Below are positions 7,045 to 22,846 of a stretch of DNA of 50,169 nucleotides, one piece after another (positions within the stretch are counted from its first letter, which is position 1; every line of letters starts with the position of its first letter). The notes beneath the pieces were generated by a model. It was not told where the DNA came from. It was given only the letters and a program-made list of their open reading frames with translations, and made no database searches. Made by a program: the position numbers and the translations under genes. Source of the DNA: an uncultured Verrucomicrobiota bacterium (GTDB taxonomy: Bacteria > Verrucomicrobiota > Verrucomicrobiia > Limisphaerales > UBA9464); assembly GCA_903907925.1 (NCBI GenBank), contig CAIVQB010000094.1:1-50169 (forward strand), in the 5' to 3' direction.

Positions 7045-8307
7045 GTGGCACGCCCCAACCAGATCACGATGTGCAGCTTCTGCGGCAAAAGCCGGGCGGA
7101 AGTTAAGAAGCTGATCGCCGGCCCGGGAGTCTACATTTGCGACGCCTGTGTCGCCGTCTGCCAGGGGGTGCTGGCGAAGGAGCTGCGCGCTGAAACCCAC
7201 AAGGAAGCCCAGCGGCTCAGCGTTCCCAAACCCGCCGAGCTCAAACGCCGGCTCGACGAACACATCATCGGCCAGGAAGAAGCCAAGCGCAGTCTTAGTG
7301 TTGCCGTTTACAACCATTATAAGCGGATCCAGAACCTGCCCACCGGAGTCCCGGATGACAACGAGGTCGAACTCCAGAAGAGCAACGTGCTGCTCATCGG
7401 CCCGACCGGCTGTGGAAAAACCCTCGCCGCCCAGACCATCGCCCGGCTGATCGACGTGCCGTTCGCCATGGCCGATGCCACGTCCATCACTGAGGCCGGC
7501 TATGTCGGCGAGGACGTCGAAACCATCATTCTCCGTCTGCTTCAAAACGCCGATTACGATGTGAAACGCGCCCAGATGGGCATCGTTTACATTGATGAAA
7601 TCGACAAGATCGCCCGCAAAACCGAGAACGTCTCGATCACCCGCGATGTCTCCGGCGAAGGCGTCCAGCAGGCCCTTTTGAAGATTCTGGAGGGAACCGT
7701 CTGCGCCGTTCCGCCCCAGGGCGGCCGGAAACACCCGCAACAGGAATATATCCGGGTCGATACCACGCAGATTTTATTCGTGTGCGGCGGGGCATTTGTG
7801 GGTCTCGACCGGACCATCCAGCGTCGATTGGGGCGCCGGGTGATGGGATTCGCCGCCGGAGCCGAAGCCGCCGAGGCGGCCAAGATCACCACCCAGGAGG
7901 TGCTCAAGCGCGTCGAACCCGAGGATCTGCTGACCTACGGATTTATCCCGGAGTTCATCGGACGCCTCCCGGTGGTCAGTGTTCTCGATGAACTGTCGGA
8001 GTCCGATCTGGTCCGGATCCTCACCGAACCGCGCAATGCCCTCGTCAAACAGTTCGCCAAACTCCTCGCGTTGGACGGAGTGAGCTTGACGGTGACCCCC
8101 GATGCCGTGCAGGAACTGGCCGCACTGGCCCTCAAAAAAGGGACCGGAGCCCGTGCGCTGCGCGGCATCCTCGAGCGCCTGATGCGGGATGTAATGTTCG
8201 ATATCCCCAGCTCCGACGAAATCGTGGGAGTGACCATCGACCGGGGTGTCGTGACCGGCGAAACTCCCGCGATCCTCCAGTCCCGGCCGTCGTCGGTTGC
8301 TGCCTGA
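7045..8307 (+). CDS. clpX: ATP-dependent protease ATPase subunit ClpX
   Basis: AAA+ unfoldase that feeds proteins to ClpP. The N-terminal zinc domain has Cys10, Cys13, Cys32 and Cys35. Walker A GPTGCGKT lies at 119-126, the GYVGEDVE pore loop follows, Walker B IVYIDEID is near 180-187, and the sensor/lid helices include [20 protein letters not shown]. The length of 420 residues matches the family (E. coli 424). Start is the GTG at 7045; the next codons [16 protein letters not shown] align with other ClpX proteins. The ClpP-contact loop reads MGF at 267-269 where IGF is usual. clpP and tig are not adjacent, which is atypical, so this gene stands alone. Confidence 0.97.
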
Positions 8308-8931
8308 CGGCTGTTTTGTCCCATGGCCGTGCGGCGGGCGGCGAAGCGCCGACGGGGTTGAGGCGGTTGAAAAGATGAAGTGTTGAACGGGAAAGCTGGT
8401 GAGCCTCTTCAACTTTCCAACTCTTCATCTTTTCCCCAATCCCGTGCATCAGCGGTTTTTCGCCGGACCCGGACCCAACGCCGCTCCGCTCGTCCTTCGA
8501 GTCGTGCGGAAAGGCCTTGGGATCCCACTCGGGTGTAGGACAGTTCTCCAACACAAACGTAACATTCGGGGGGGCAGAGGGAAAATTCGATGCCGCCGAC
8601 TCCAATCTCGAAAGATTGTACAGGGCCATCGCCTGAATAGGGGGGGGTGCCTGCGTTGGGGTTTGCGTGGCACCGGGTGGATCGGAACGTTGTTACCGCC
8701 CTGTCATCAAGCGATCTGGCGACCGCGTTCACCACTTTTTTGTTGCGCCGAAGCGGAGGTGTGTGGTGATCTCACCGCAGACCCCAGAAGCTTTCGCAGA
8801 CAATCTCGATTCCAAAAGTGTCTTTTCGGAGAAAATCCGGAGACGCCGGACGGGGTGTCTGCGTCGGTGGGCGGGGATTCGTGATTAGGCTGTAACAAAA
8901 ACTAAACTCCAAATCCCAAGGCCAAAAACCT
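8308..8931. other. Long intergenic region upstream of the abundant secreted-protein gene
   Basis: No gene recognised in 624 bp. It holds the AT-rich hairpin at 8370-8433, a G7 run near 8568-8574 and a G8 run at 8640-8647, and the small inverted repeat TCTCGAAAGA near 8607. The last ~60 bp before the gene are A-rich, with AAGG about ten bases before the ATG as a weak ribosome site. I could not fix a promoter with confidence, although the strong codon bias of the downstream gene implies one. Confidence 0.5.
8370..8433. repeat. Hairpin of AAAAGATGAAG arms after clpX
   Basis: The left arm AAAAGATGAAGTGTTG (from 8370) pairs with CAACTCTTCATCTTTT (ending 8433), one mismatch over 16 bases. It is followed by CCCC and not by a T run. 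The arm belongs to a loosely repeated GAAGAGTTGAA-type sequence also present at 30304-30326 and 30681-30701. It could end clpX transcription, but its stem is AT-rich, so I list it as a repeat. Confidence 0.6.
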
Positions 8932-11802
8932 ATGCGATCACACTTGAAAGGTTCCGTTGTGATGGGCGCGATTCTGGCGTTGACAGGGCTCTACTCGGCC
9001 CAGCTCAACGCAGACGTCACCCTCGCGGAAAAGAACGTGCTGGCTAGCAGCAGCGCGGATACGACCAAGCCAGGCTTCATCTGGAATTACCACCAGGTCG
9101 CCAGCGGTCAGCCCAACAACAACGACTGGACCGAGCTGCAAATCGCCGGTCTGGAAGGCGACAACATCGGCGATCCCTCTGCTGTTGGTATCGCTGACGC
9201 TCCTGCCGCCGCTCCTGCGAAGAGCACGGACGTCATTACGTTCACCATCTCCACGGTCATCAACGTGGACAAGTCCGGTGGCAGCAACGGTAACTTCACC
9301 CCCGACGACCAGATGCCTGGCTGCCCGGGTCTCAATGGTGGTTCCAACAACAACGCTGCTGAAATCCTGACCTGGCTCGACCTTCCGGTCGGCACGATCA
9401 CCCTCGGTTGCAACTCTGACGACGGCTTCCGCTGGTCGATGGGTGGTGCCGCTCCGAAGGACAAGTTCGGCGTCAAAGTTGGCGAATTCAACGGTGGCCG
9501 TGGTGCCTCGGACACGACCTTCAAGATCGTGACCACCAAGGCCGGTCTCTATGCGACCCGCATCGTCTGGGAAAACGGCGGCGGCGGATCGAACTGCGAG
9601 CTTTTCAGCGTTGCTGCTGACGGCACGAAGACCCTTCTGAACGACACCGCAAACGGTGGCATCAAGGCGTATCGCGCGGTCAAGGGCTCTGCCCCGACCT
9701 TCGCGAGCATCGTGACCCCCGGCAACGGTGCCACTGGAGTTGATTTCCAGACCGCGCTGCACGTCGCCCTCGTGGGTGCGAACGTCAAGAATGACTCCAG
9801 CCTCGTCATGAAGCTCGACGGTGCCGTGGTGGCCGCGACCAAGTCGGCAACCGGTGGTGTCACTGATGTGTTCTTCCAGCCCTCCGGCAACTTCGCCGCT
9901 GGATCCGCTCACTCTGCTGAGTTGGATTACAACGACGGAACCGCCCAGGCCATCACCTGGACCTTCACCATCGCCAACTATGGTGAACTGACCGCTGCCA
10001 TGGCTGTCACCCCGGATACCTCCAAGCCGGGCTTCATCATGCGCACGTTCAACAACCAGGCGAACCAGAACAACGACAACCAGTCGACCGAAGACGCCTT
10101 GAACGGCCTCGAAGTCGATGGCTCGGGTGTTGCTCTGCCCAACCTGTCCGATCCGTCTGTGACCGGTGTGGCGCTCGCCGCTGGCAAGCCTGAAAGCTCC
10201 GCCGCGAATGCGAACCTGGTTTGGGAAATTCCGGGAACCATCAACTTGGACAAGGCCGCTGGTGCCAACGGCAACTTCCAGCCTGACGACCAGATGCCTG
10301 GCGAACCGGCAACGGACGGCAGCTCGAACGGCGCCAAGGCTGACTTCGTCACCTACGCCACGCTCAAGAAGGGTGTCTACACGATGGGTGTGAACTCGGA
10401 CGACGGTTTCCGCGCCACCGCGGGTCCGATCAAGGACGCTCTCTCCCATGTGTTCCTCGGTGAATTCAACGGCGGCCGTGGTGCTTCCGATACGCTCTAC
10501 AAGTTCCTTGTGGATGCTGACGGAACCTATCCCCTCCGTTTCACCTGGGAAAACGGCGGCGGCGGATGCAACGTTGAAATCTTCACCGTCGCTGCTGACG
10601 GAACGAAGATCCTCCTCAACGATACTCTGAACGCGAATGCGGTTAAGAGCTATCGCGCCACGGTCGGCAACTCGATCGTGAATCCGTACGTCAAGGTCAT
10701 TTCTCCGGCTGACGGATCCACGGATCAGAGCCCCGCTCCGACCATCTCGGCGATCATCGTCGACGGTGGAAAGACGGTGGACAAGACCTCGATCACCCTG
10801 ACTGCCAATGGTGCTTCCGTTACCCCGACGGTCACCCAGGCTGCCGGCGTGACCACGGTCACGTTCACCCCGTCGGCGGATTATCCCCCGACCACCAAGG
10901 TTGCTGTTGCGCTGACCTTCAAGGATAACGCTGGCTCGGCCCGCACGATCAACTGGTCCTTCACGACCACCTACATCACCCGTGACACGCTCTTCATCGA
11001 AGCTGAAGATGCGGACTTCGGTCATGGAAAGACCATCACCGACAAGAAGATCGGTATGGACGGCCCGTATCCCGGTGGATCGTTCGCCGGATTGGGAACC
11101 GCCGATGACGAAGGATTCGATTGGCACGCCAACGGCCCCGATGGGCAGGCCTATCGTCCTGACACCGGCCTCTCGGCTGGTAAGGAAAACGGCACCGCCG
11201 GTAACAACCGTGGTTACTTCAACGTCACCGATTGGTGGACGCTGGGTTGGAACGACGCCGGTGAATGGGAAAACTACACCCGTACTTTCCCGACTGCGAC
11301 GACCCAGTACGAAGTGTTCTATCATACCGCCTCAGGTGGTAGCGCGATCGACTGGACGCTGAGCTTGGTGACGGCCGGTGCCGGCACTGCCACTCAGACC
11401 CTGCAACGGCTTGCCAACGTGACTCCGGGCCGTGCTACTGCCGGCTGGGATAACTTGGAAGTCTTCCAGGCGACTGACGAGACGAACGGCAACAAGCCGG
11501 CGATCGTCACTATCCCTGGTGGAAAGCAGACCATCCAGAACAGCCTGCGCAGCGGTAACGGGGACATCGACTACATCGCGTTCCGTCCGTACAAGGCCGC
11601 TGTGTCGACGACTCCGAAGCTGTCCGTCACTTGGGCTAACGGCAAGTACACGGTCACCTCTGATTCGGCGGTTGCCTCGCCGTTCAAGTTGCAGACCGCC
11701 AGCTCACCGAGCGGCCCGTGGACCGACGTCACCGGCGTGACGTTGCCCTACACCGCGGCTCCGACCGCAGCGGCGGGTTACCTCCGCGCGTTCAGCCCGT
11801 AA
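8932..11802 (+). CDS. Large secreted protein: two repeated beta-modules, Ig-like linkers, CBM6-like domain
   Basis: 956 residues with a Sec signal peptide (MRSHLKGSVVMGAILALTGL, cut near residue 28). Two ~200-residue repeats (about 40-240 and 360-565) each contain DTxKPGFI, NGNFxPDDQMPG, LG/MGVNSDDGFR and GEFNGGRGASDT, then WENGGGG and AADGTK.LLND. They resemble PA14-like beta-barrels, in which an SDDG.R loop is common. Each is followed by an SbsA/Big_5-like Ig domain (SPADGSTDQSPAPTISA). Residues ~683-885 resemble a family-6 carbohydrate-binding module (IEAEDADFG, GWNDAGEWENYTRTF). The tail ends LQTASSPSGPWTDV...YLRAFSP. Codon use differs sharply from neighbours (GCT, GGT, AAG, AAC, ATC preferred), a sign of high expression. 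A strong terminator follows. No enzyme signature; a surface or matrix structural role is inference. Confidence 0.85.
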   Translation: MRSHLKGSVVMGAILALTGLYSAQLNADVTLAEKNVLASSSADTTKPGFIWNYHQVASGQPNNNDWTELQIAGLEGDNIGDPSAVGIADAPAAAPAKSTDVITFTISTVINVDKSGGSNGNFTPDDQMPGCPGLNGGSNNNAAEILTWLDLPVGTITLGCNSDDGFRWSMGGAAPKDKFGVKVGEFNGGRGASDTTFKIVTTKAGLYATRIVWENGGGGSNCELFSVAADGTKTLLNDTANGGIKAYRAVKGSAPTFASIVTPGNGATGVDFQTALHVALVGANVKNDSSLVMKLDGAVVAATKSATGGVTDVFFQPSGNFAAGSAHSAELDYNDGTAQAITWTFTIANYGELTAAMAVTPDTSKPGFIMRTFNNQANQNNDNQSTEDALNGLEVDGSGVALPNLSDPSVTGVALAAGKPESSAANANLVWEIPGTINLDKAAGANGNFQPDDQMPGEPATDGSSNGAKADFVTYATLKKGVYTMGVNSDDGFRATAGPIKDALSHVFLGEFNGGRGASDTLYKFLVDADGTYPLRFTWENGGGGCNVEIFTVAADGTKILLNDTLNANAVKSYRATVGNSIVNPYVKVISPADGSTDQSPAPTISAIIVDGGKTVDKTSITLTANGASVTPTVTQAAGVTTVTFTPSADYPPTTKVAVALTFKDNAGSARTINWSFTTTYITRDTLFIEAEDADFGHGKTITDKKIGMDGPYPGGSFAGLGTADDEGFDWHANGPDGQAYRPDTGLSAGKENGTAGNNRGYFNVTDWWTLGWNDAGEWENYTRTFPTATTQYEVFYHTASGGSAIDWTLSLVTAGAGTATQTLQRLANVTPGRATAGWDNLEVFQATDETNGNKPAIVTIPGGKQTIQNSLRSGNGDIDYIAFRPYKAAVSTTPKLSVTWANGKYTVTSDSAVASPFKLQTASSPSGPWTDVTGVTLPYTAAPTAAAGYLRAFSP

Positions 11803-11832
11803 GGGTTGACGGATAGCAATATCCTTAAAGCA

Positions 11833-11867
11833 AGGGCCGGGGCAAAACTGCCCCGGCCCTTTTTGTT
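11833..11867 (+). terminator. Rho-independent terminator of the secreted-protein gene
   Basis: An 11-bp perfect stem (AGGGCCGGGGC at 11833-11843 with GCCCCGGCCCT at 11850-11860), a 6-base loop and a TTTTTGTT tail. It lies 31 bases after the stop codon. Confidence 0.95.
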
Positions 11868-11873
11868 GCCCGA

Positions 11874-11925
11874 CCTTGGGCGATGCCGAAGGCTGGTATG
11901 GTCCGGGCCTTTGGCACTGGGAGGG
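11874..11925 (+). repeat. Dispersed intergenic repeat, copy 2
   Basis: Reads CTTGGGCGATGCCGAAGGCT, GGTATGGTCCGGGCCTTTGG, plus strand. It matches copies at 545-596 (minus), 30406-30488 (minus) and 30557-30645 (plus). It starts only 7 bases after the preceding terminator. The rest of the gap to 12214 (about 290 bp) contains no recognised gene, although the frame of the next gene happens to stay open through it. Confidence 0.65.
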
Positions 11926-12214
11926 CGTGGTTCGATCCGAGCCCAAATTCATCGCGAACCGAATCCGGTACTCAACCCGGGACACCCTCCCTGGGCTGGT
12001 GGCAGCGGCTCGTGCGGGACGCACCGCCGGCGATGGACGAATCCATTCGCCACACCAGCATTGCAACTGCTCGGATTCGTCCGAATCTCGGTTCCGCAAC
12101 GCTTTCCGGAACACAAATACCTGCGACCGACGCCACTGCCGTGCTCTCGTGAACCGCTTACTGCATTCCGTTTCTTCGGCCCGTCAGACACAGTCCGTTT
12201 TTCCGCGCCCTTCG

Positions 12215-13744
12215 ATGCGTTGGTTACTTCTCGTCTTGGCGTGGATCGCTCTGCCCGATAGTAGTCCCGTCCGCGCGCAGACCCTCCCGTCGGCGACCGG
12301 TGCCCAACTGGCTCGCGTCCATTGCGCTACCTGCCATCTCTTTCCCGAACCCCGGCTTCTCGATCAGAAGACGTGGCGTGAACAAACGCTCCCCCGGATG
12401 AAAATCCGCCTGGGTCTGGCTCCCGAGCAACTCGACCGCCAGAAGTTCGCCGACATTCTCAAGACGACGACGGGTTTCCTGAAGCAACCGCTTCTGACGC
12501 CTGAACAATTCGATTCCATCGTCGCCTTCTATGCCACCGAAGCACCCGTGACGACGGCACCGCAGGCACCGCATTTGCCGATCGAGGCGGATCTCGATCT
12601 CTTCCGATTTGAACCCGCCTCCGACCGGTCCGGCGACCCGGCAACCACGATGGTTCGAATCTCCGAGGTCGAACACCGGATCTACGTCGGCGACTTGAAT
12701 CGCCGGGCGTTGACGGCGCTGAACGCCTCGGGCTCCAACGAATGGACCCTGCCGCTGAACAACATCCCGGTGGATATCATTCGCCGGACGAATGACGCGA
12801 TCGTGACTTTGATCGGCAGTTTCATGCCCACCGAGGAACGGAGCGGAGCGGTGATTCTTCTGACCAATTCGGTCGGGCGATTGCTGCCCTCGCGTACGTT
12901 GCTGGAAGGGCTCGCCCGCCCCGTTCAGACGACCGTCGCCGACCTCAACGGCGATGGACGGGAGGATCTGATCGTCTGCCAATACGGAAATAACATCGGC
13001 CACTTCGCGTGGTTCGAAGGACAGCGGGACGGCTCGTGGTTGGAACATTTGTTGGTGCCGAAATCGGGTGCGCTGTGTGCCGAAGTGCGCGATCTGAACG
13101 GCGACGGATTTCCGGACATTGTGGCCCTCTTCGCGCAAGAGACGGAATCCCTGTATCTCCTCTACAACGATGGCAAGGGCGGCTTCCGCCAGCGGACCGG
13201 CTTTCAACGGCCGCCGGTTTTTGGACACACCCATTTTGAAATGGTGGACTTCGACGGGGACGGCCGCCTCGATTACCTCATCACCAACGGTGACAACGGT
13301 GAATATCCCTCACCGATGAAGAATTATCACGGGATCTCGGTGTACCTGGATCGTGGAGGACGGTATGAGCGGGCGTTCTTCTACCCGATGAACGGGGCGT
13401 TCAAGGCGATCGCCCGCGATTTCGACGGCGACGGGGACCTCGATATTGCCGCCATTTCGTTCTATCCCGATTTCCGGAATTCACCGCGTGAAGGCTTCGT
13501 TTATCTGGAGAACATCGGAGGAATGAAGTTCAAGCCCCACACCATTCCCGAGGTCTCGTCCGGTCGCTGGATCGTGATGGATGCCGGCGACGTCGATGGG
13601 GACGGCGATCTCGACATCGTGCTGGGATCGTTCATCCACGGCCCGACGGATGTTCCGGATTCGATGATGCTCGACTGGCAGAAGAACGGGCCTGCGGTGG
13701 CGATCCTTCGCAATCAACTCATGGAACGCCGGCGCAAACCGTGA
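12215..13744 (+). CDS. Exported c-type haem / FG-GAP (VCBS) propeller protein
   Basis: 509 residues from the ATG at 12215, chosen because it begins a clean signal peptide (MRWLLLVLAWIALPDSSPVRA); the frame is open further upstream but crosses a dispersed repeat. One haem-attachment motif CATCH at 37-41 is followed by HLFPEPRLLDQKTWREQTLP and RMKIRLGL; the methionine there may be the axial ligand. From ~130 on there is a beta-propeller with five calcium-loop repeats, for example ADLNGDGREDLIV, VDFDGDGRLDYLI and RDFDGDGDLDIAA. The protein is presumably periplasmic or surface-exposed. Its stop overlaps a possible GTG of the next gene (GTGA, 13741-13744), so it probably heads a three-gene unit. 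Electron-transfer partners and substrate are unknown. Confidence 0.85.
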   Translation: MRWLLLVLAWIALPDSSPVRAQTLPSATGAQLARVHCATCHLFPEPRLLDQKTWREQTLPRMKIRLGLAPEQLDRQKFADILKTTTGFLKQPLLTPEQFDSIVAFYATEAPVTTAPQAPHLPIEADLDLFRFEPASDRSGDPATTMVRISEVEHRIYVGDLNRRALTALNASGSNEWTLPLNNIPVDIIRRTNDAIVTLIGSFMPTEERSGAVILLTNSVGRLLPSRTLLEGLARPVQTTVADLNGDGREDLIVCQYGNNIGHFAWFEGQRDGSWLEHLLVPKSGALCAEVRDLNGDGFPDIVALFAQETESLYLLYNDGKGGFRQRTGFQRPPVFGHTHFEMVDFDGDGRLDYLITNGDNGEYPSPMKNYHGISVYLDRGGRYERAFFYPMNGAFKAIARDFDGDGDLDIAAISFYPDFRNSPREGFVYLENIGGMKFKPHTIPEVSSGRWIVMDAGDVDGDGDLDIVLGSFIHGPTDVPDSMMLDWQKNGPAVAILRNQLMERRRKP

Positions 13745-13800
13745 GAACCCGTCTGACAATTGGGAAAAGCAGTGCGCCACGCGGAATCCCCGGCACTTCA

Positions 13801-16800
13801 ATGCGGATTCAAACAGTCGTTTCGGCCGCATGGCACGGGCTTCAATGGATCCTGATTCTTTCGCTCATTCCTGATCTTCCATGGTGTGTGGTCGCCGCGG
13901 AAATCCCGTCCGATGGCGAAGGCGTTCGTCGGATCCCGCTTTCGACGCCGGGGACGGGCCGAACCGGATTCACCCTGCTGCCCTCCTCCCGAACTGGAAT
14001 TACCTCCACCAACTCGATCTCGGATGACGCGGTCGCCGCCAATCGAATCCTCGAAAATGGATCCGGTGTGGCACTCGGCGACGTGGATGGGGATGGTCGC
14101 TGCGACATCTATTTCTGCCGTCTCGACGGGGGCAATGTCCTCTACCGAAATCTGGGGGATTGGAAGTTTGTCGACATCACGGCCGAAGCCGGCGTTGCGT
14201 GTCGCGGCCAGGCCTCCACCGGCGCCGTGCTGGAAGACATTGATGGCGATGGCGATCTTGATTTGCTGGTGAATGGCATTGGAGTTGGCACCCGACTCTT
14301 TCTCAACGATGGCCACGGCCATTTCACCGAGTCCCTGGATTCCGGCCTGAAACGTCAGGGCGGCAGCACCTCGTTGAGTCTGGCCGACGTCGACGGTGAC
14401 GGTGACCTCGACCTCTTCGTGGCCAACTACCGATCGAACACCTACAAGGACCGTCCGGCGGGTGTCGAGCGGTCCGTCCGCCGGGTCGGGGATCAATGGG
14501 TCGTCACGCCGGCGGATCGTTTCGAGGCGCGTCCGACGATGCGTGGCGATGGCGTGATCGTGGTGGAACTCGGCGAACCCAATGTCCTCTACATTAACAA
14601 GGGCACCGGCCGGTTTGGCGCGGTGGGATGGACCGGCGGAGCGTTTGTGGATGCGGCCGGAGTGGCACTCCGCGAACCGCCACGTGACTGGACTCTGAGC
14701 GCCATGTTTCGCGACATCGATCTCGACGGCCGTCCGGATCTCTACACCTGCAACGATTTCATTCTGTCTCTGGATGGACTCTGGATGAATCGGAACGGGA
14801 AAAAGTTCCAGATGGCGGACCCGCACGTGCTCCGGCACACCTCGATGTCCTCGATGGCGGTCGATTTCGCCGATATCAACCGCGACGGTCTGGATGACTT
14901 CATTGTGGTGGACATGCTGAGTGATGATCCGGTCCGGCGTCAGCGACAGCGTCCCAATCTTTTGAAGGGACAGTTGGATCATCGACTGGCGGATCCGGAC
15001 CACCGACCGGAGGTGTCGCGCAACACCGTCTTCCTCAACCGCGGCGACGGCACCTACGCGGAGATCGGCCAGTTGGCCGGCCTGTCGGCAACGGACTGGA
15101 GCTGGAACGCGTTGTTTGTCGATGTCGATCTGGATGGATTCGAGGATCTGCTGGTGGTCAACGGCCACGATCACGATGTCATCGACGCGGATATGATGCG
15201 CGAGGTGTCGGCGACTCCTGGTGGGGCCAGTGCCGAGGAGCATCGCCGGAATTTATTGAGGTTTCCGCGACTGGAAGTGCCGAAGAGGGCCTTTCGAAAT
15301 CGCGGCGATCTGACGTTTCAGGACGTGAGTGCGGAGTGGCGCTTCAATTCCCGTGGCATTGGTCACGGTGCCGCGCTGGCGGATCTCGACGGTGACGGTG
15401 ATTTGGATCTGGTGGTGAACACACTCCAGGATGCCGCGGGAATTTATCGGAACGACGGTGTCGCGCCACGCATCGCTGTACGGTTGCGTGGCAAGGCTGG
15501 AAACACTCGTGGCATCGGGGCGCGGATCGAAGTGCGTGGAGGCGCGGTTCCAGTGCAGACGCAGCAGATGATCAGCGGCGGCCGCTATCTGTCGTCCGAC
15601 GATGCGATTCGGACGTTCGCCGCCGGTTCGACGACCAACCAGATGACCTTGGAAATCACCTGGCGGAGCGGAATGAAGTCACGGATCACCGGAGTAACAG
15701 CGGGCTTCCTGTATGAAGTCGATGAGACCGCGGCCCGCCCGGCGGTGGCTCCTTCCATTCCGGCGGCGGTTGCGGCACTGTTCGAGGATGCCACGGCGTT
15801 GCTCGGACATCGTCACGAGGATGCCCCGTCTGATGAATTTGAGCGGCTGCCCTTCCTGACCCACGGTCTGAGTCATCGCGGACCAGCGGTGGCATGGACC
15901 GATGTGGACGGCGACGGTTTTGAAGATCTGATGATCGGTGCCGGACGTGGAGGCCGGCTGGCGGTGTTGCGAAATCTGGCGGGCCGCGGGTTTTCACCGA
16001 TCACGAATGCGGCGGCTTCCCAAGCTGTGTCCGCCGGTCATTCCGGCGTCATCGGATGGCCGCAAGCCGACGGGACCTCATGGGTGATGGCCGGGCTGAA
16101 CGCCTCGGACGATCCCGCGGCGGATCAGGCGGGTGCGGTGGTGGGTGGCCCGTTGTCGTCGTCGCCCGTTGTGATGGTGTCACCTTCCACCACCAGTCCG
16201 GGTCCAATGAACCTCGTCGATCTCAACGGGGATGGAACCCTGGAGTTGTTCGTCGGTGGACGGGCGATTGCCGGACGTTATCCGGAGCCGGCGTCGTCGC
16301 GGCTCTTCCGTCGCGCGGATGGAAAGTGGGTTCCCGTGTCGACGGGTTCCGTTCTGGACGGCGTGGGGTTGGTGAACGGCGCGGTCTTTTCCGATCTCGA
16401 CGGCGATGGACTGCCGGAATTGGTGCTGGCGTCGGAATGGGGCGCGATTCGGATCTTCCGGAACCGTTCGGGAAAACTGGAGCCGTGGGATCCGCCGTTG
16501 GAGATCGAGGGCGAGGTGACCGGGAGGGCGTCGTTGCACCAGTTGCACGATCTGACCGGCTGGTGGACCGGCGCGACCGCGGGCGACTTTGACGGAGACG
16601 GCCGGATGGACCTGGTGGTCGGCAACTGGGGCCGCAACACGAAGTATCAATCGTCGCTCGCGCGTCCGCTGCGGTTGTATCGTGGCGAATTCGGCGGCGA
16701 AGCGGGGATCGGCTTTCTCGAGGCCGCCTTCGAGCCGACTCTTGGCAAATACGCCCCATGTCGCGACCTCGACGCCACGGCCGTCGCGGTGCCGGATGTC

Positions 16801-17580
16801 CGTGCGCGCTTTACCACGTATCGCGGATTTGGTGCCGCCGGAATTGAGGAAATCCTCGGTGACCATCTGCGACAGGCGGCGGTGTCGGAAGCGGCCACAC
16901 TGGATTCGGTGATCCTGTTGAACCGGGGCGATCACTGGCTGGTGCGCCCGCTGCCGGTGGAGGCCCAGTTCGCGCCGGTGTTCGGCATCAGTGTCGCGGA
17001 TGTGGACGGCGACGGGCACGAGGACCTGTTGCTGGCGCAGAATTTCTTTGAAGTGGAACCGGAAACCTCGCGGTACGACGCCGGGTTGGGGTTGTGGCTG
17101 AAGGGCGATGGAAAGGGCGGATTCCGGGCCATGTCGGCCGCGCAATCCGGCATTCGTGTCTGGGGCGAGCAACGCGGATCCGCGGTGGGCGACTACGATG
17201 GCGATGGACGGGTCGATTGGTGCGTCGCTCAAAATGCGGGAGCGACCCGATTGTTCCACAACGTGGGTGGAACGCCGGGACTTCGCGTTCGATTGAAGGG
17301 ACCGGCGGGAAACCCAACCGGGATCGGCGCGAGAATCCGCCTTCAGTTTGACAAGGGCGATGGGGCTGTCCGTGAGGTTCACGCGGGATCCGGATATTGG
17401 TCGCAGGACGCCGCCGTGCAGGTGATGGCGCTGCCGGGTCCGGCGCGAAAGATCCGGATCGACTGGCCTGGTGGCGGCCGGTCGGAGCTGGAGATTCCCC
17501 CGGGCGCGGGCGAGATTGAAGTGTCCGCGACGGCCGGATTGAAAGAAATCAAGCGCACTGCACCGCCATCAAAGCCCTGA
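13801..17580 (+). CDS. Giant double-propeller CRTAC1-like protein (FG-GAP + ASPIC/UnbV, twice)
   Basis: 1259 residues from ATG 13801, which gives a good signal peptide (MRIQTVVSAAW... to WCVVAAE); an in-frame GTG at 13741 overlaps the previous stop and is the alternative. I count 13 DxDxDGxxD-type loops (first VDGDGRCDIYF, last YDGDGRVDWCV): seven before a first ASPIC/UnbV domain (GNTRGIGARIEVRGG..., about 567-640) and six before a second (GNPTGIGARIRLQF..., about 1170-1245). It thus looks like two propeller+UnbV modules fused. Family knowledge gives calcium binding and an extracellular place, not a reaction. The next gene is a collinear paralogue. Confidence 0.85.
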   Translation: MRIQTVVSAAWHGLQWILILSLIPDLPWCVVAAEIPSDGEGVRRIPLSTPGTGRTGFTLLPSSRTGITSTNSISDDAVAANRILENGSGVALGDVDGDGRCDIYFCRLDGGNVLYRNLGDWKFVDITAEAGVACRGQASTGAVLEDIDGDGDLDLLVNGIGVGTRLFLNDGHGHFTESLDSGLKRQGGSTSLSLADVDGDGDLDLFVANYRSNTYKDRPAGVERSVRRVGDQWVVTPADRFEARPTMRGDGVIVVELGEPNVLYINKGTGRFGAVGWTGGAFVDAAGVALREPPRDWTLSAMFRDIDLDGRPDLYTCNDFILSLDGLWMNRNGKKFQMADPHVLRHTSMSSMAVDFADINRDGLDDFIVVDMLSDDPVRRQRQRPNLLKGQLDHRLADPDHRPEVSRNTVFLNRGDGTYAEIGQLAGLSATDWSWNALFVDVDLDGFEDLLVVNGHDHDVIDADMMREVSATPGGASAEEHRRNLLRFPRLEVPKRAFRNRGDLTFQDVSAEWRFNSRGIGHGAALADLDGDGDLDLVVNTLQDAAGIYRNDGVAPRIAVRLRGKAGNTRGIGARIEVRGGAVPVQTQQMISGGRYLSSDDAIRTFAAGSTTNQMTLEITWRSGMKSRITGVTAGFLYEVDETAARPAVAPSIPAAVAALFEDATALLGHRHEDAPSDEFERLPFLTHGLSHRGPAVAWTDVDGDGFEDLMIGAGRGGRLAVLRNLAGRGFSPITNAAASQAVSAGHSGVIGWPQADGTSWVMAGLNASDDPAADQAGAVVGGPLSSSPVVMVSPSTTSPGPMNLVDLNGDGTLELFVGGRAIAGRYPEPASSRLFRRADGKWVPVSTGSVLDGVGLVNGAVFSDLDGDGLPELVLASEWGAIRIFRNRSGKLEPWDPPLEIEGEVTGRASLHQLHDLTGWWTGATAGDFDGDGRMDLVVGNWGRNTKYQSSLARPLRLYRGEFGGEAGIGFLEAAFEPTLGKYAPCRDLDATAVAVPDVRARFTTYRGFGAAGIEEILGDHLRQAAVSEAATLDSVILLNRGDHWLVRPLPVEAQFAPVFGISVADVDGDGHEDLLLAQNFFEVEPETSRYDAGLGLWLKGDGKGGFRAMSAAQSGIRVWGEQRGSAVGDYDGDGRVDWCVAQNAGATRLFHNVGGTPGLRVRLKGPAGNPTGIGARIRLQFDKGDGAVREVHAGSGYWSQDAAVQVMALPGPARKIRIDWPGGGRSELEIPPGAGEIEVSATAGLKEIKRTAPPSKP

Positions 17581-17593
17581 GAATTCATCGTCG

Positions 17594-20500
17594 TTGAACG
17601 TCTCCATTCCAGAGAACCCCCGCCTTCAAGTGACCGTCATTTCTCCACCGGCTCAGTGCTCCGCTGCGCCTCCGTCGCGCCCGAACGATTTCTTCAAAAC
17701 GAGTGCGGGTTTCATCGTTTGGATCATCGCGTGCCTGACTTTGGGACTCGGCGGACTACGGGCGGCGACAGAGCCACCGACGGCGACCGGGCCCGGGTAT
17801 CGGGAATGGGCGCTGCCCAAGCCGACTGGAACCAAGCCCGGTTTCACCCTGATGTCGCCGGAATCGCTCGGAATCCGGTTCACCAATTTCGTCGGCGTGA
17901 CCCGGTCGGCCACCAACCGGAATCTGTTGAGCGGTTCCGGTGTTGCGGCGGGTGATGTGGACGGGGATGGCCGGGTGGATTTGTTTTTTTGCGGCATGGG
18001 TGGTGCCAGCCGGTTGTACGCGAATCGCGGAGGAATGCGGTTCGAGGACATCACGGTCGCGGCGGGCGTGGCGCTGCCCGATGGGGATGCGACGGGCGCG
18101 GTATTGGTCGATGTCGATGGGGACGGGGATCTGGACCTGCTGGTCAACCTGCTCGGCGGCGGGACCCGATTGTTTCTCAATGACGGAAAGGGACATTTCC
18201 ATGATGCCACCCGCGAATCCGGTCTCGCGTCGTTGCACGGCGGAATGTCGATGGCGCTGGCCGACGTCGACGGCAACGGCACCCTGGATCTCTATGTCTG
18301 CAATTTCGCGCCGTCGACCATTCGTGATCAGGTGTCGCCCCGGATCCGCGCCGTCGACACCGGCGGGCGTCCGCGGGTGGTGTCGGTCAACGATCGCCCG
18401 ACCACCGATCCTGATCTCACCAACCGGTATGTGATCACCGCCAACGGATCGGTCCTCGAGTACAGCCAGGAACACGATTTCTATCTCAATGACGGCCACG
18501 GGAGGTTCACGCGCGTGCCGTTCACGGGAGGCGCGTTTCTGGACGAGGATGGCAAGCCGCTGACGCAGGCGCCGCTGGATTGGGGTTTGGCGGCGCAGTT
18601 CCACGATGTGAACGGGGACGGCGTTCCTGATTTGTATGTGTGCAACGATTTGTTCACGCCGGACCGATTCTGGATCAACGACGGTCACGGCCGGTTCCGG
18701 GCGGCGGATCGGTTGGCACTCCGCCACATGTCCAGCTTTTCGATGGGCGTGGATTTTGGCGATTTGAACCACAGCGGGAATGTCGATTTCTTCGTGGTCG
18801 ACATGCTCAGCCGCGATCATCAGCGGCGGCATGTCCAGGTGGCGCAGATGAATGCGGTGCAATGGCCGGTGGGTGTGATCGACGACCGGCCGCAGTTGTC
18901 GCGGAACACGCTCCAGGTGGGGCGCGGGGACGGAACATTCGCGGATCTCGCCTATTTCTCCGGACTGGAGGCCAGCGAATGGTCCTGGGGTCCGATCTTC
19001 GTCGATGTGGATCTCGATGGCTGGCTCGACATCCTGGTGGCGAACGGTCAGCTCCGGGATTTCCAGAACATGGATGTGGCCCGCGCCCTGCAGGCGGCGC
19101 AGGCGGGCCGGCAGTTGACCCAGTCGGATGCCATTCGGCTTCAGGAGCAGATTCCGAAGCTTGAAACCTCGAAACTGGCGTTCCGAAATCTGGGTGGTTA
19201 CCAGTTCTCCGATCAAAGTGAGGCTTGGGGACTCGGCGGCCCCGGCATCTCCCAGGGAATGTGCCTCGCGGACCTGGATGGCGATGGCGACCTCGATCTC
19301 ATCGTCAACAATCTCAATGCGGTGGCCTCGGTGTACCGCAACGAAACCATCGCGCCGCGGGTGGCGGTCCGGCTCAAGGGCCGTGCGCCCAACACCTCCG
19401 GCGTGGGTGCAGTCGTCACCTTGAAGGGCGGTGGCGCTCCGATTCAATCGCAGGAACGCATTTCCGGCGGCCGCTATCTTTCCGGTGATGACGCCCTGCA
19501 AGTGTTCGCGGCGGGAACGGGAACCGGCCCGCTATCATTGGACGTCCGCTGGCGCAGCGGAACGATCAGCCACGTTGAAGTCGTTCGCGCGAATCACCTG
19601 TATGAAATCGAGGAACCGTCCGGTTCGGCACCGATGAGAGTGGTTACTGCGGAGACGGTGCCGAAGCCCTGGTTTGAGGATGTCACCGGCCGGTTGAATC
19701 ATTCCCACACCGAGGAACCCTTTGATGATTTTGAACGTCAGCCACTGTTGCCGAGGCGGCTGAGCCAGCTTGGACCTGCGGTGGCGTGGCACGACATCGA
19801 CGGCGATGGCTGGGAGGATCTGGTGATTGGAACCGGCCGTGGTGGTGCGATGGGCGTGTTCACCAATGACACCCGCGGCGGGTTTGTTCGCCTGGACCAG
19901 CCGTCCTTCAACCGTCTGTTGCAGCGGGATCAGGCCGGCATTGTCTCGCTGGATGGAACCTTGATCGCGGGCTCATCGAACTATGAGGACGGCCTGACCA
20001 ACGGCGGCTGGGTCCGCATTTACGACCTGGCCCGCAAGGTGGCGGGTGAAAGCATCGCGGGTCAGACCGGCGCTCCGGGTCCGCTCGCGCTCGCCGATGT
20101 GGACGGTGATGGAACGCTGGATCTGTTCATCGGCGGACGGGTGATCGCTGGACGTTATCCGGAGGCACCGCCGTCGGTGCTGCTTCACAGCGAAGCTGGA
20201 CATCTGGTGCCGCAGCAGAAATTCACCGGCCTGGGAATGGTCAGCGGCGCGGTCTTCACCGATCTCGATGGCGATGGACGCCCGGAATTGGTGGTGGCCT
20301 GCGAATGGGGGCCCATCCGGGTCCTGCGCTGGGATGGTCATCAGTATGTGGAGATCACCCAGGCTCTGGGTCTCGGCGCGTTCACCGGTTGGTGGAACAG
20401 CGTTGCGGCCGGTGATTTTGACGGCGATGGGCGCATGGACTTGATCGCGGGGAATTGGGGACTGAACAGTCCGTACCACGCATCCGGTCCTCATCCGGTG

Positions 20501-21388
20501 AAACTGTACTTCGGGGATCTCGCCGAGACCGGCGCGTTGGATCTCGTTGAGGCGGTTTTTGAACCCACGTTGTCCAAGGAGGTGCCAATCCGCGGGTTGC
20601 GTTCGGTGGGCGCGGCTCTGCCCTGGGTGGGGGCGCGGATGCCGACCTTTGCGCACTACGGCGAATCCGGCCTGCCTGAAATCTTTGGTGATCGAATCGG
20701 AACCGTTCCGGCATTGGAGGTGAACACCCTGGAATCCATGGTGTTTTTGAACCGTGGCGACCATTTCGAGGCCCACCCGCTTCCCGCCGAAGCCCAATGG
20801 GCACCGGTGTTCGGAGTTTCAGTTGCAGATGCCGACGGGGACGGGAAGGAAGACGTGTTCCTGGCGCAGAACTTTTTTGCGGTGAATCCCGAAATGCATC
20901 GTCTCGATGCGGGTCGGGGCCTGTGGTTGCGCGGCGATGGAACCGGCAAGTTTGAGGCGGTGTCCGGGCAGGTCAGCGGCGTCAAGGTCTATGGCGAGCA
21001 GCGGGCCAGCGCGGTCGCGGACTTCGATCACGACGGGCGGACGGACTTGGTGGTGACCCAAAACGGCGCGGCGACCCGGTTGTATCGCAACGTGGGGGCC
21101 CGGCCGGGGCTTCGGGTTCGTCTGGAAGGGCCGGCGAAGAATCGGCGGGGTGTGGGCGCGGTGTTGCGGCTGAAGACGGCGACCTGGACCGGTCCGGCGC
21201 GCGAGATTCATGCCGGCTCAGGGTATTGGTCGCAGGACGCGGCCGTGACGGTCCTGTCCCGACCGCCGGGTCCGCTGGGATCGGTCGATTTGATCGTGCG
21301 CTGGCCGGGCGGTCGGACGACGACGGTTCCGGTGGGATCCAGCGAGACTTCCGTGGCGGTGCGACCGGACGAGGCGGCCGCGAAATGA
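17594..21388 (+). CDS. Giant double-propeller CRTAC1-like protein, paralogue of the preceding gene
   Basis: 1264 residues if started at TTG 17594; GTG 17630 is an alternative start, and neither has a clear ribosome site. A hydrophobic segment FIVWIIACLTLGLGGLRA (about 40-57) would be the signal. It has the same plan as its neighbour: 13 DxDxDG-type loops, seven before the first ASPIC/UnbV domain (NTSGVGAVVTLKGGGAPIQS..., ~598) and six before the second (NRRGVGAVLRL..., ~1181), each followed by an 'SGGRYLS' or 'GSGYWSQDAAV' turn. Only 13 bp separate it from the previous stop. The pair therefore looks like a tandem duplication of a fused gene, probably co-transcribed. Confidence 0.83.
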   Translation: MNVSIPENPRLQVTVISPPAQCSAAPPSRPNDFFKTSAGFIVWIIACLTLGLGGLRAATEPPTATGPGYREWALPKPTGTKPGFTLMSPESLGIRFTNFVGVTRSATNRNLLSGSGVAAGDVDGDGRVDLFFCGMGGASRLYANRGGMRFEDITVAAGVALPDGDATGAVLVDVDGDGDLDLLVNLLGGGTRLFLNDGKGHFHDATRESGLASLHGGMSMALADVDGNGTLDLYVCNFAPSTIRDQVSPRIRAVDTGGRPRVVSVNDRPTTDPDLTNRYVITANGSVLEYSQEHDFYLNDGHGRFTRVPFTGGAFLDEDGKPLTQAPLDWGLAAQFHDVNGDGVPDLYVCNDLFTPDRFWINDGHGRFRAADRLALRHMSSFSMGVDFGDLNHSGNVDFFVVDMLSRDHQRRHVQVAQMNAVQWPVGVIDDRPQLSRNTLQVGRGDGTFADLAYFSGLEASEWSWGPIFVDVDLDGWLDILVANGQLRDFQNMDVARALQAAQAGRQLTQSDAIRLQEQIPKLETSKLAFRNLGGYQFSDQSEAWGLGGPGISQGMCLADLDGDGDLDLIVNNLNAVASVYRNETIAPRVAVRLKGRAPNTSGVGAVVTLKGGGAPIQSQERISGGRYLSGDDALQVFAAGTGTGPLSLDVRWRSGTISHVEVVRANHLYEIEEPSGSAPMRVVTAETVPKPWFEDVTGRLNHSHTEEPFDDFERQPLLPRRLSQLGPAVAWHDIDGDGWEDLVIGTGRGGAMGVFTNDTRGGFVRLDQPSFNRLLQRDQAGIVSLDGTLIAGSSNYEDGLTNGGWVRIYDLARKVAGESIAGQTGAPGPLALADVDGDGTLDLFIGGRVIAGRYPEAPPSVLLHSEAGHLVPQQKFTGLGMVSGAVFTDLDGDGRPELVVACEWGPIRVLRWDGHQYVEITQALGLGAFTGWWNSVAAGDFDGDGRMDLIAGNWGLNSPYHASGPHPVKLYFGDLAETGALDLVEAVFEPTLSKEVPIRGLRSVGAALPWVGARMPTFAHYGESGLPEIFGDRIGTVPALEVNTLESMVFLNRGDHFEAHPLPAEAQWAPVFGVSVADADGDGKEDVFLAQNFFAVNPEMHRLDAGRGLWLRGDGTGKFEAVSGQVSGVKVYGEQRASAVADFDHDGRTDLVVTQNGAATRLYRNVGARPGLRVRLEGPAKNRRGVGAVLRLKTATWTGPAREIHAGSGYWSQDAAVTVLSRPPGPLGSVDLIVRWPGGRTTTVPVGSSETSVAVRPDEAAAK

Positions 21389-21508
21389 CCGGGTAACCCG
21401 GGTGCGGTGTGATCGGAAGTGGGTCTGATCGGAGAAATTCGCGCAGGAAAACGGCGGTAAAGTCATTTGTTCGTTGGCAACCGGCCGTGGGCTTCGCAAG
21501 TTAGGGCC

Positions 21509-22147
21509 GTGGCGTTCGAAGGCACCGATTTTGAGGATACCGACTATGCGAAGCCGCGGGCATCGGCGACCCCCGGCCGGGCTCCGACCCGCGAGGAGCT
21601 CGATTCGCAGTTGACGGGCACCCAGCAACAACTGGCCAAACTGCGGGAAACGCAGGAGCAGTTGGAGCGCGCCCGCGTCGCCCTCGAGGAAATGCGCCGC
21701 CGCCGTGCCGAGTTCTCGGCCGGGTTGACCGACATGCGCCAGCAGCTCACCCGGGGCGAGGGTCTCCTGCAAAAGGCGGAACTCGACGCGCGCCGCGAGG
21801 CGGAGCAGTTGGCCCGGACACTTTCGGCGGTTCGTGGGTCGCTCGATTCCCTGGCACCATTGAGCGATGCCGCCTGGACGGACGAGAATTGGGAACAGGA
21901 ATTGACCCGTGGCCTCACGGCGATCGAGAACGCCCGGTTGGAATTCAATGCCGCCCGGCTCAAATGGCCCATTCTGGACGGAACCGCCACCACGGATGCG
22001 CGGGGTGAATCTGCGGGGGGGCTCGCGGCCTGGACTGACCTTTCCACCGGACAATTGATGCGAATCGGCTTCGCACTGACCTGGCCGCTGGTGCTGGTCG
22101 TGGCGATCGCGGCCGGTGCTGCCATCCTCCTCGTCCTGCGACACTAA
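21509..22147 (+). CDS. Small coiled-coil protein with C-terminal membrane anchor
   Basis: 212 residues from GTG 21509 (TTG 21467 would add 14 residues without known features). An acidic N-terminus (MAFEGTDFEDTDYAK) is followed by a long predicted coiled coil (about 30-130) rich in E, R, L and Q. Near the end, LTWPLVLVVAIAAGAAILLV is a single membrane helix with only three residues after it, so it is a tail-anchored protein with a cytosolic body. No family recognised. Another tail-anchored protein starts 12 bp downstream, which suggests a functional pair. Membrane-associated scaffolding is only a guess. Confidence 0.7.
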   Translation: MAFEGTDFEDTDYAKPRASATPGRAPTREELDSQLTGTQQQLAKLRETQEQLERARVALEEMRRRRAEFSAGLTDMRQQLTRGEGLLQKAELDARREAEQLARTLSAVRGSLDSLAPLSDAAWTDENWEQELTRGLTAIENARLEFNAARLKWPILDGTATTDARGESAGGLAAWTDLSTGQLMRIGFALTWPLVLVVAIAAGAAILLVLRH

Positions 22148-22159
22148 GGGACGGGTGCC

Positions 22160-22651
22160 ATGTCGTTGTTTTCAAAAAAAGATGATCTGATGGCGCGTCG
22201 CGAGAAGGCGCTCCACGCCGACCTGGCCCGATTGGAACTGGAGGTTCGCCGGCTGGCGAACGAAGCTCCAAAGCCTGCTCCACTGACCCGACCCGGAGAT
22301 ACCATGAGATCCAGCGGAAGATCGTTTACCCCGCCGTTTGCCGCGCCGCTGCCGCCGACATCCGCTCCCGCGGCATCAGGGGTTTCCGGCGCGTTGCCCC
22401 CCGGCCATTTCAACGACCGCGGGCTCCGCAAATTCGATCTGGTCGCCTTTTGGAATGGCTTAAAAAACCACGTGAGCGGCCCGACCGGCAACAACCCGGC
22501 GATGGTGCGCATGCTGGCCGCCGGAAGCCTCCACGGATTGCGTCCGCTTCGCCGCGAGCGACGCGTGGCCCGTAACCGCTTCATTTTCCTCTTCCTCACG
22601 CTCCTGGCCATTCTTTGGGGCCTCGTCTTCAGCTACTTCCGGCAGCACTGA
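22160..22651 (+). CDS. Small protein with N-terminal charged helix and C-terminal membrane anchor
   Basis: 163 residues; AAGGGA lies 7-12 bases before the ATG. Residues 1-35 (MSLFSKKDDLMARREKALHA...) form a charged amphipathic helix, 36-80 are Pro/Ala-rich, 100-140 are basic, and the last ~20 residues (FIFLFLTLLAILWGLVFSYF then RQH) are a membrane helix. No family recognised. The spacing of 12 bp to the coiled-coil tail-anchored gene upstream implies one operon. Confidence 0.7.
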   Translation: MSLFSKKDDLMARREKALHADLARLELEVRRLANEAPKPAPLTRPGDTMRSSGRSFTPPFAAPLPPTSAPAASGVSGALPPGHFNDRGLRKFDLVAFWNGLKNHVSGPTGNNPAMVRMLAAGSLHGLRPLRRERRVARNRFIFLFLTLLAILWGLVFSYFRQH

Positions 22652-22686
22652 TCGGAAACGATTCAGAGAAAGCCGTAGAGGACGCG

Positions 22687-22846
22687 GATTCACTGATGGA
22701 GACGGAATGGACAGAATGAACTGAATGAGTCGGATGGGATCGGGACTTCTGGAATCGGTGCCGGTTTTCCCAATTTCCAGAGGCGCTCTCAGGGTTCTGA
22801 TGCACGAATCGGATTCCGTCCATTCGGACCATTCCGTCTGAATCTC
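22687..22846. repeat. Imperfect inverted repeat built from GGAATGGAC/GAATG units
   Basis: The left arm (about 22687-22728) reads GATTCACTGATGGAGACGGA then ATGGACAGAATGAACTGAAT. The right arm (22811-22846) is its approximate complement, GGATTCCGTCCATTCGGACC then ATTCCGTCTGAATCTC. About 80 bp lie between the arms. It resembles the element at 6853-6958 in style and in the shared CATTCCGT...TCTGAATC segment. Confidence 0.6.

Follow-up and report, generated by a model that had tools for sequence, protein, structure and literature searches.

Why does a gene for an exported propeller protein with a haem-c attachment motif lie immediately ahead of two giant propeller genes, and what could the three products do together? 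The question is raised by a 50,169-nucleotide stretch of DNA (the window; contig CAIVQB010000094.1 of assembly GCA_903907925.1, positions 1 to 50,169) from an uncultured Verrucomicrobiota bacterium, whose genome comprises 4.6 Mb in 148 contigs. An earlier note, made from the letters of the window, had regarded the genes as one functional unit in which the haem protein suggested a redox role, possibly an extracellular electron-transfer or oxidation system. The analysis reported here showed that the partnership between the cytochrome-propeller gene, encoding P0001, and the giants, P0002 and P0003, is old, repeatedly kept and optional. The locus comprises:

12215 to 13744, + strand: P0001, with a signal peptide, a predicted mono-haem c-type domain and a 7-bladed VCBS/FG-GAP propeller (5 calcium loops, blades 3-7)
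12323 to 12337, + strand: CATCH haem-c attachment motif of P0001 (Cys37, Cys40, His41)
12398 to 12400, + strand: Met62 of P0001, by sequence the candidate distal haem ligand
13741 to 17580, + strand: P0002, exported double-CRTAC1 giant with 13 calcium loops (7+6) and two UnbV_ASPIC domains; alternative start ATG 13801
15511 to 15705, + strand: first UnbV_ASPIC domain of P0002 (Pfam)
17320 to 17493, + strand: second UnbV_ASPIC domain of P0002 (Pfam)
17594 to 21388, + strand: P0003, exported double-CRTAC1 giant with 13 calcium loops (7+6), of a giant lineage other than that of P0002
19400 to 19603, + strand: first UnbV_ASPIC domain of P0003 (Pfam)
19661 to 21373, + strand: second half of P0003, with the CRTAC1 fold (propeller plus UnbV-type sandwich; match to 9etn, Z 39.9)

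The three genes were real and lay where the earlier note had placed them. P0001 begins at an ATG and has a signal-peptide-like N-terminus. P0002 has two possible start codons: from GTG 13741 it has 1279 residues and a 4-nt overlap with the TGA of P0001, and from ATG 13801 it has 1259 residues and no overlap. The length of 1259 residues and the GTGA overlap, both proposed previously, are thus each correct for one start codon and mutually exclusive. P0003, 1264 residues from a TTG, starts 13 nt past the end of P0002, the distance given earlier for the paralogue.

Conservation of the gene order was assessed in 105 cytochrome-propeller loci, 45 of them, counting that of the window, from the same family as the window and 60 from elsewhere in the order. 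Within the family, 44 loci were fetched of the 51 places found at E <1e-60 besides the window; G023:C38, G036:C133, G032:C270, G021:C59, G022:C327 (two pieces) and G002:C606 were left out; a giant adjoins the gene in two of these, G021:C59 and G002:C606. Outside the family, 60 of the 81 places found were fetched, the rest being the 19 weakest matches and two partial ones. L062, which came from the same contig as L060, cut a second time, was omitted. Flanks of less than 1200 bp on a side occurred in 20 of the 105 loci, and seven Bacteroidota loci lie outside the count.

A giant was located at most 500 bp from the cytochrome gene in 37 of the 105 loci, compared to 0.24 expected from the 8.2 giant matches per genome (all 50 genomes of the window's family match, with at least 409 matches; these counts are lower bounds, 14 candidates having been scored per genome). 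There were 32 downstream giants, 26 on the same strand, and 9 upstream giants, all on the same strand; an exact 4-nt stop/start overlap between cytochrome and giant genes occurred in 11 loci when the frames were read from the first start codon. On the cytochrome tree (112 rows, 14 unlabelled), the linked state required 14 changes over the 98 labelled rows, compared to a mean of 32 and a minimum of 24 in shuffles, and it was present on either side of the midpoint root. The order therefore recurs well outside the window and is conserved far beyond chance, so that the functional unit of the earlier note is supported, with the predicted haem protein as part of it. No paper on this gene pair was found among the matches listed in a search of the open literature.

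Two observations count against a tight unit. No giant lies within 500 bp in 68 of the 105 cytochrome loci, L050 and L051 of the window's genus among them, and the incomplete same-genus assemblies G006, G008 and G009 (54% complete) have giants and no strong P0001 match. An obligate partnership is ruled out by the 68 loci. In the same-genus copies L057 and L059, the giant is upstream.

Other neighbours were seen at some of these loci. In L144, L145, L146, L152, L155, L157, L158 and L161, the cytochrome-propeller gene comes right after NADH-dehydrogenase-type genes (Proton_antipo, by Pfam on L157) and the fetched stretch has no giant; any functional meaning of these nuo neighbours, found in one cytochrome clade, was set aside because the loci are close relatives. 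A TPR protein with one CxxCH (Pfam on L128) occurs in the flanks in L102, L128, L147, L151 and L169. The records titled Akkermansia muciniphila (L096, L098, L125, L136, L144, L157) sit among Pedosphaera-like Verrucomicrobia and their labels may be wrong.

Within the order, 53 of 146 genomes gave a match to the cytochrome gene. Phylum-wide, at least 1 of 193 genomes had it at 1e-80 and at least 5 of 193 had giants at 1e-150, both lower bounds with at most 8 cytochrome and 3 giant candidates scored per genome. A search with alignment A1 gave 421 relatives, of which the best 80 were used; the named ones were mostly Verrucomicrobia or Pedosphaera records. No relative was found when genome contigs were searched with the P0001 sequence alone, and plasmids gave no match at 1e-30. 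The P0001-type gene in L120 (6431-8137) is broken into two open frames, of 405 and 129 aa, which may reflect a pseudogene or an assembly error.

Seven of the best 80 relatives were in Bacteroidota (Adhaeribacter, two Ferruginibacter, a Cytophagales, Puia, Pontibacter and a Chitinophagaceae), and they formed one group in the cytochrome tree (99*), consistent with a single transfer or a single old origin. A same-strand giant lies directly upstream of the cytochrome gene in five of the seven. SusC and SusD precede the giant in all four loci that reach far enough (L165, L167, L172 and L173; Pfam on L172), two of the four being near-identical Ferruginibacter. Five of 12 giant and cytochrome starts in these bacteria match the lipobox pattern and the other seven show, by eye, a hydrophobic stretch ending in Cys, so from their N-termini both proteins look like lipoproteins there. 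The giant and the cytochrome-propeller thus follow SusC/SusD, as in an uptake operon, in Ferruginibacter, Puia and Pontibacter records. The window differs in that an Ig-type gene is upstream instead, and neither SusC nor SusD was present among the 20 window ORFs scanned, direct neighbours included.

The giants themselves had been described as two collinear proteins with 13 calcium loops each, split 7+6, around two ASPIC/UnbV domains. The loops were counted likewise, one of those in P0003 being a relaxed DLNHSG, and composition shuffles of the giants gave a mean of 0.4 and a maximum of 4. Both UnbV domains of P0002 were found by Pfam. In P0003 the first was found in the same way, and the second is proposed from the collinearity with P0002 and from the likeness of the second half of the protein to the CRTAC1 structure. 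The halves are homologous in both proteins (P0003, 26% over 613 columns, E 2e-18; P0002, 34% over 107 columns, E 2e-12), which bears out the view that each giant is a fused duplicate. In profile searches, the giants matched mouse CRTAC1 (9etn) at E 3e-36. The AlphaFold2 model of P0003 residues 61-1260 was confident (mean pLDDT 91.4); its second half aligned with 9etn over 443 residues (rmsd 2.5, Z 39.9, the next fold having Z 31.4), and Foldseek gave the CRTAC1 fold at E 2.2e-24. The giants therefore share with CRTAC1/ASPIC-UnbV proteins (PF07593 plus FG-GAP repeats) both the fold and, above the Pfam cut-off, the UnbV domain. They differ from CRTAC1 in having two fused copies in about 1270 aa, in forming what appears to be a hetero-pair of two lineages and in being encoded next to a haem protein, or next to SusCD in Bacteroidota. 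Another CRTAC1-type protein, encoded elsewhere in the window (46796-49135, - strand), has 779 aa and is single-copy, with one UnbV domain.

P0002 and P0003 are 46.5% identical over 1245 columns, and a tandem duplication had been proposed for them. This part of the earlier note did not hold. Among 17 neighbouring, same-strand pairs of full-length giants (11 linked to a cytochrome gene and six not, with L176-L178 closely related), 15 were not mutual nearest relatives, the exceptions being L222 and L229, so a recent tandem duplication of P0002 and P0003 was rejected. In a FastTree tree of 76 giants, which carried a long-branch warning, P0002 grouped with the cytochrome-linked giants of L052-L055 and L205 (98*), and in the window, L199, L205 and L211 one giant belongs to the clade of P0002 and its partner to the larger clade of P0003. 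Since the pairs are not nearest relatives and their members are split between these clades, the duplication is older than the lineages concerned, and the tree indicates that the giants are an old hetero-pair with two separately maintained subunits.

Such tandem hetero-pairs are not confined to the neighbourhood of P0001-type cytochrome genes, being present without one in L176-L179, L182 and L183. In L176-L178 the next genes after the pair are one for a PSCyt1-WD40-PSCyt2-PSD1 haem protein and a DUF1501 gene (identified by Pfam in L177 and by similarity in the others). This neighbour is only suggestive because PSD1 is so common: the window's 4.6 Mb genome has 38 PSD1 (DUF1553) matches, a large expansion of planctomycete-type cytochrome genes. 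A general tie of giants to PSD1 haem proteins was not concluded, there being one conserved locus. On the other side of the pair in L176-L178 is dnaA, and a 3-keto-disaccharide hydrolase is encoded further off in L176.

The haem domain of P0001 was assessed in alignment A2, which comprises the window and 68 of 79 listed relatives. CxxCH was present in 69 of 69 rows, window included, and Met62 in 68 of 69; a chance CxxCH appeared in 0.05% of shuffles of the P0001 composition. Two Cytochrom_C_asm matches in the bacterium's own genome make c-type maturation plausible in the host. The N-terminal region is accordingly described as a predicted mono-haem c-type domain, the wording reflecting the weak matches to known cytochromes given below. 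A single haem of the Met/His kind suits one-at-a-time electron transfer. Pfam at E 0.01 found no PSCyt1, PSCyt2 or PSD domain in P0001. It found no PQQ repeat at that cut-off either, and a PQQ quinohaemoprotein was rejected on this Pfam result.

The remainder of P0001 is a propeller. Its AlphaFold2 model was confident (mean pLDDT 92.9), seven blades could be read from the strands, and the DxDxDG calcium loops lie between strands A and B; Pfam FG-GAP_3 matched at 1.7e-32. The top PDB structure match was aldos-2-ulose dehydratase (4a7y; Z 29.1, 349 residues, rmsd 3.4), which was also found by the profile search (4a7k, E 1.7e-4), and integrins matched near Z 26. One source (PMC8023676) assigns aldos-2-ulose dehydratase to the VCBS family, and its title puts integrins into the same superfamily. 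The likeness to this enzyme (4a7k, 4a7y, 4a7z), the highest-scoring solved propeller for P0001, is one of propeller fold; the enzyme has about 880 residues, compared to 488 in P0001, the identity is 14-16%, and the entry titles name no haem. Moreover, LGI1 was a close second by structure (Z 27.6), two secreted esterases scored better by profile (E 4e-11 and 1.1e-5), and the CRTAC1-type half of P0003 matched the dehydratase likewise (Z 28.4). Because of the esterases and the match of P0003, the likeness is a lead and not a specific kinship; the fold says little about chemistry.

Nine residues of P0001 outside the calcium loops that are polar or aromatic and at least 95% conserved lie in BC or DA loops or are the first of strand A: R235, Q308, E311, D360, N361, H372, R451, W452 and W488. 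Three others (W266, S415, N500) are inside strands. By the usual strand order, the BC and DA loops of the model would face away from the calcium loops. The CD loops have no such residue over just 23 positions, compared to 109, and as they are short this is weak evidence alone.

Upstream of the three genes are two further features:

8932 to 11802, + strand: exported Ig/PA14-family gene with a bacterial Ig-like Big_5 domain (Pfam; GLEYA match below cut-off)
11832 to 11861, + strand: intrinsic-terminator-like hairpin, 13-pair stem plus T tract (-29.7 kcal/mol, z -4.3)

Seven relatives of the Ig/PA14 gene product were scanned. PA14 was above the cut-off in all seven, Ig was found in five, LamG in two and, below cut-off, CBM6 in two. 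Of the 105 loci, 27 have such a gene adjoining the cytochrome-propeller gene, in 20 cases upstream and on its strand, and 15 combine it with a giant. The order clpX (window 7045-8307), Ig/PA14 gene, cytochrome-propeller gene is common to the window, L116 and L139, and in the latter two no giant is adjacent. Apart from the hairpin, the terminator-like sites listed have at most 7 pairs and are no more numerous than in shuffles. The gene spacing and the absence of a strong internal terminator suggest that the three genes are on a single transcript. The region 8500-22800 yielded no sigma-70-like promoter, and nothing like a terminator was found from 21388 to 22800; both ends of the transcript are thus unmarked, and it could extend over the ORFs at 21467 and 22160. 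Further downstream, the window encodes a bacterial alpha-2-macroglobulin of 1991 aa (30807-36782, + strand; MG2, bait region, A2M, TED-type, MG10).

Our tentative reading, held at somewhat below even confidence, is that the locus encodes an extracytoplasmic unit, probably at the cell surface, that captures and processes a polymeric or oligomeric substrate, most likely carbohydrate, and includes a redox step. The two different double-CRTAC1 giants would be a calcium-stiffened hetero-pair holding the substrate, and the cytochrome-propeller would work alongside them, with conserved loops, mainly away from the calcium-loop face, that bind substrate or a partner and a haem that hands electrons to the periplasmic chain. 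The module often has an exported PA14/Ig-type protein as neighbour in Verrucomicrobiota, and in Bacteroidota it is wired to the SusC/SusD uptake pair. The computations show the domain make-up, the conserved haem motif and gene order, the hetero-pair, the SusCD and PA14/Ig context and the predicted folds; we infer the location at the surface, the formation of a complex, the carbohydrate substrate, the direction of electron flow and catalysis. The recurring context is one of large-molecule capture: PA14/Ig/LamG-type exported proteins in Verrucomicrobiota and SusC/SusD in Bacteroidota. The oxidation system suggested in the earlier note is a fair inference.

Published work offers two parallels. 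A study of freshwater Verrucomicrobia (PMC5615132) gives a tentative carbohydrate role for the abundant PSCyt haem proteins. The PSCyt1/2/3 plus PSD and DUF1501 cytochrome genes described there likewise join haem-c to further domains, including propeller and carbohydrate-binding ones, and giants adjoin such genes in L176-L178; P0001 differs in having no PSCyt or PSD domain and a VCBS/FG-GAP rather than a WD40 propeller. In a second paper (PMC12758564), a CRTAC1-family FG-GAP gene flanks hydrazine-synthase-like haem and propeller genes, a second published hint that CRTAC1 propellers keep company with haem proteins. The subunits of those clusters have another architecture and two or more haems, unlike P0001.

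Besides the unlinked cytochrome loci and the unspecific fold matches described above, several results weigh against capture with a redox step. P0001 matched no Pfam cytochrome-c model at E 0.01 and a PDB profile search gave cytochrome c only weakly, at E 0.63-0.79, hence the term predicted. The starred set of P0003 in the giant tree (99*) has 14 rows, 12 of them unlinked to a cytochrome gene. The window's own Ig-type protein (8932-11802) shows no PA14 by Pfam, its gene is separated from the cytochrome gene by the strong terminator-like hairpin, and the scanned ORFs of the window included no sugar enzyme adjacent to the unit.

In one alternative, the giants and the PA14/Ig proteins would serve in attachment or at the surface, as integrins and CRTAC1 do, and the haem protein would act independently and be merely co-regulated. 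One half of P0003 is close to CRTAC1 (Z 39.9), some genomes have giants without P0001, and Ig/PA14 genes are neighbours, all of which would suit an adhesive scaffold. The adjacency of cytochrome and giant genes in 37 loci against 0.24 expected, the 4-nt overlaps and the occurrence in two phyla argue otherwise, as does the different haem protein next to the giants in L176-L178, and we regard adhesion as unlikely, though it carries real weight. Quite improbable, in our view, is that P0001 is itself a catalyst of the aldos-2-ulose dehydratase kind, dehydrating or isomerising oxidised sugars, with the haem serving a linked sugar oxidation and the giants only presenting the substrate. Its best structural match (4a7y), the profile match to 4a7k, the conserved polar loop residues and a sugar-isomerase-like gene (PF01261) upstream in L174 point in this direction. 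However, LGI1 is within 1.5 Z, a secreted esterase is better by profile, half of P0003 matches the same enzyme, and the enzyme is far longer than P0001; the likeness is at the level of fold, active-site residues not having been compared, and the single sugar-gene neighbour is an anecdote.

In the remaining alternative, the haem protein would carry respiratory electrons out along a propeller scaffold, for extracellular electron transfer or the reduction of minerals or humic substances. The unit does contain an exported, predicted haem protein, and PMC5615132 proposes such electron transfer for freshwater Verrucomicrobia. However, the verrucomicrobial candidate presented there is a porin with an eight-haem cytochrome, and proteins of the P0001 type have one haem motif. 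An ORF with at least three CxxCH was found in the fetched flanks of just one of 104 loci (L061), porins not having been searched for, and the SusC/SusD context indicates import. The extracellular electron transfer raised in the earlier note is thus very improbable and was set aside, no multi-haem partner being present in the flanks of 103 of 104 loci. Surface capture with a haem-linked oxidative step is favoured over electron export because of the capture context, the single haem and the one multi-haem locus in 104.

A more specific and rather speculative form of the capture reading is that the locus belongs to an undescribed surface redox-uptake module of Verrucomicrobiota and Bacteroidota, in which the haem-c propeller would oxidise, or carry out an elimination on, a polymer held by the giants, the products entering through a SusCD-type pore. 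No tested function for bacterial CRTAC1 proteins was found in the open literature searched, and double-CRTAC1 giants are abundant in these bacteria. The function of the giant family is testable because the haem partner can be assayed and SusCD-linked versions are present in named strains (Ferruginibacter paludis, Puia dinghuensis and Pontibacter sp.). If true, the module would be an oxidative alternative to glycoside hydrolases and would provide the first function for bacterial CRTAC1 proteins.

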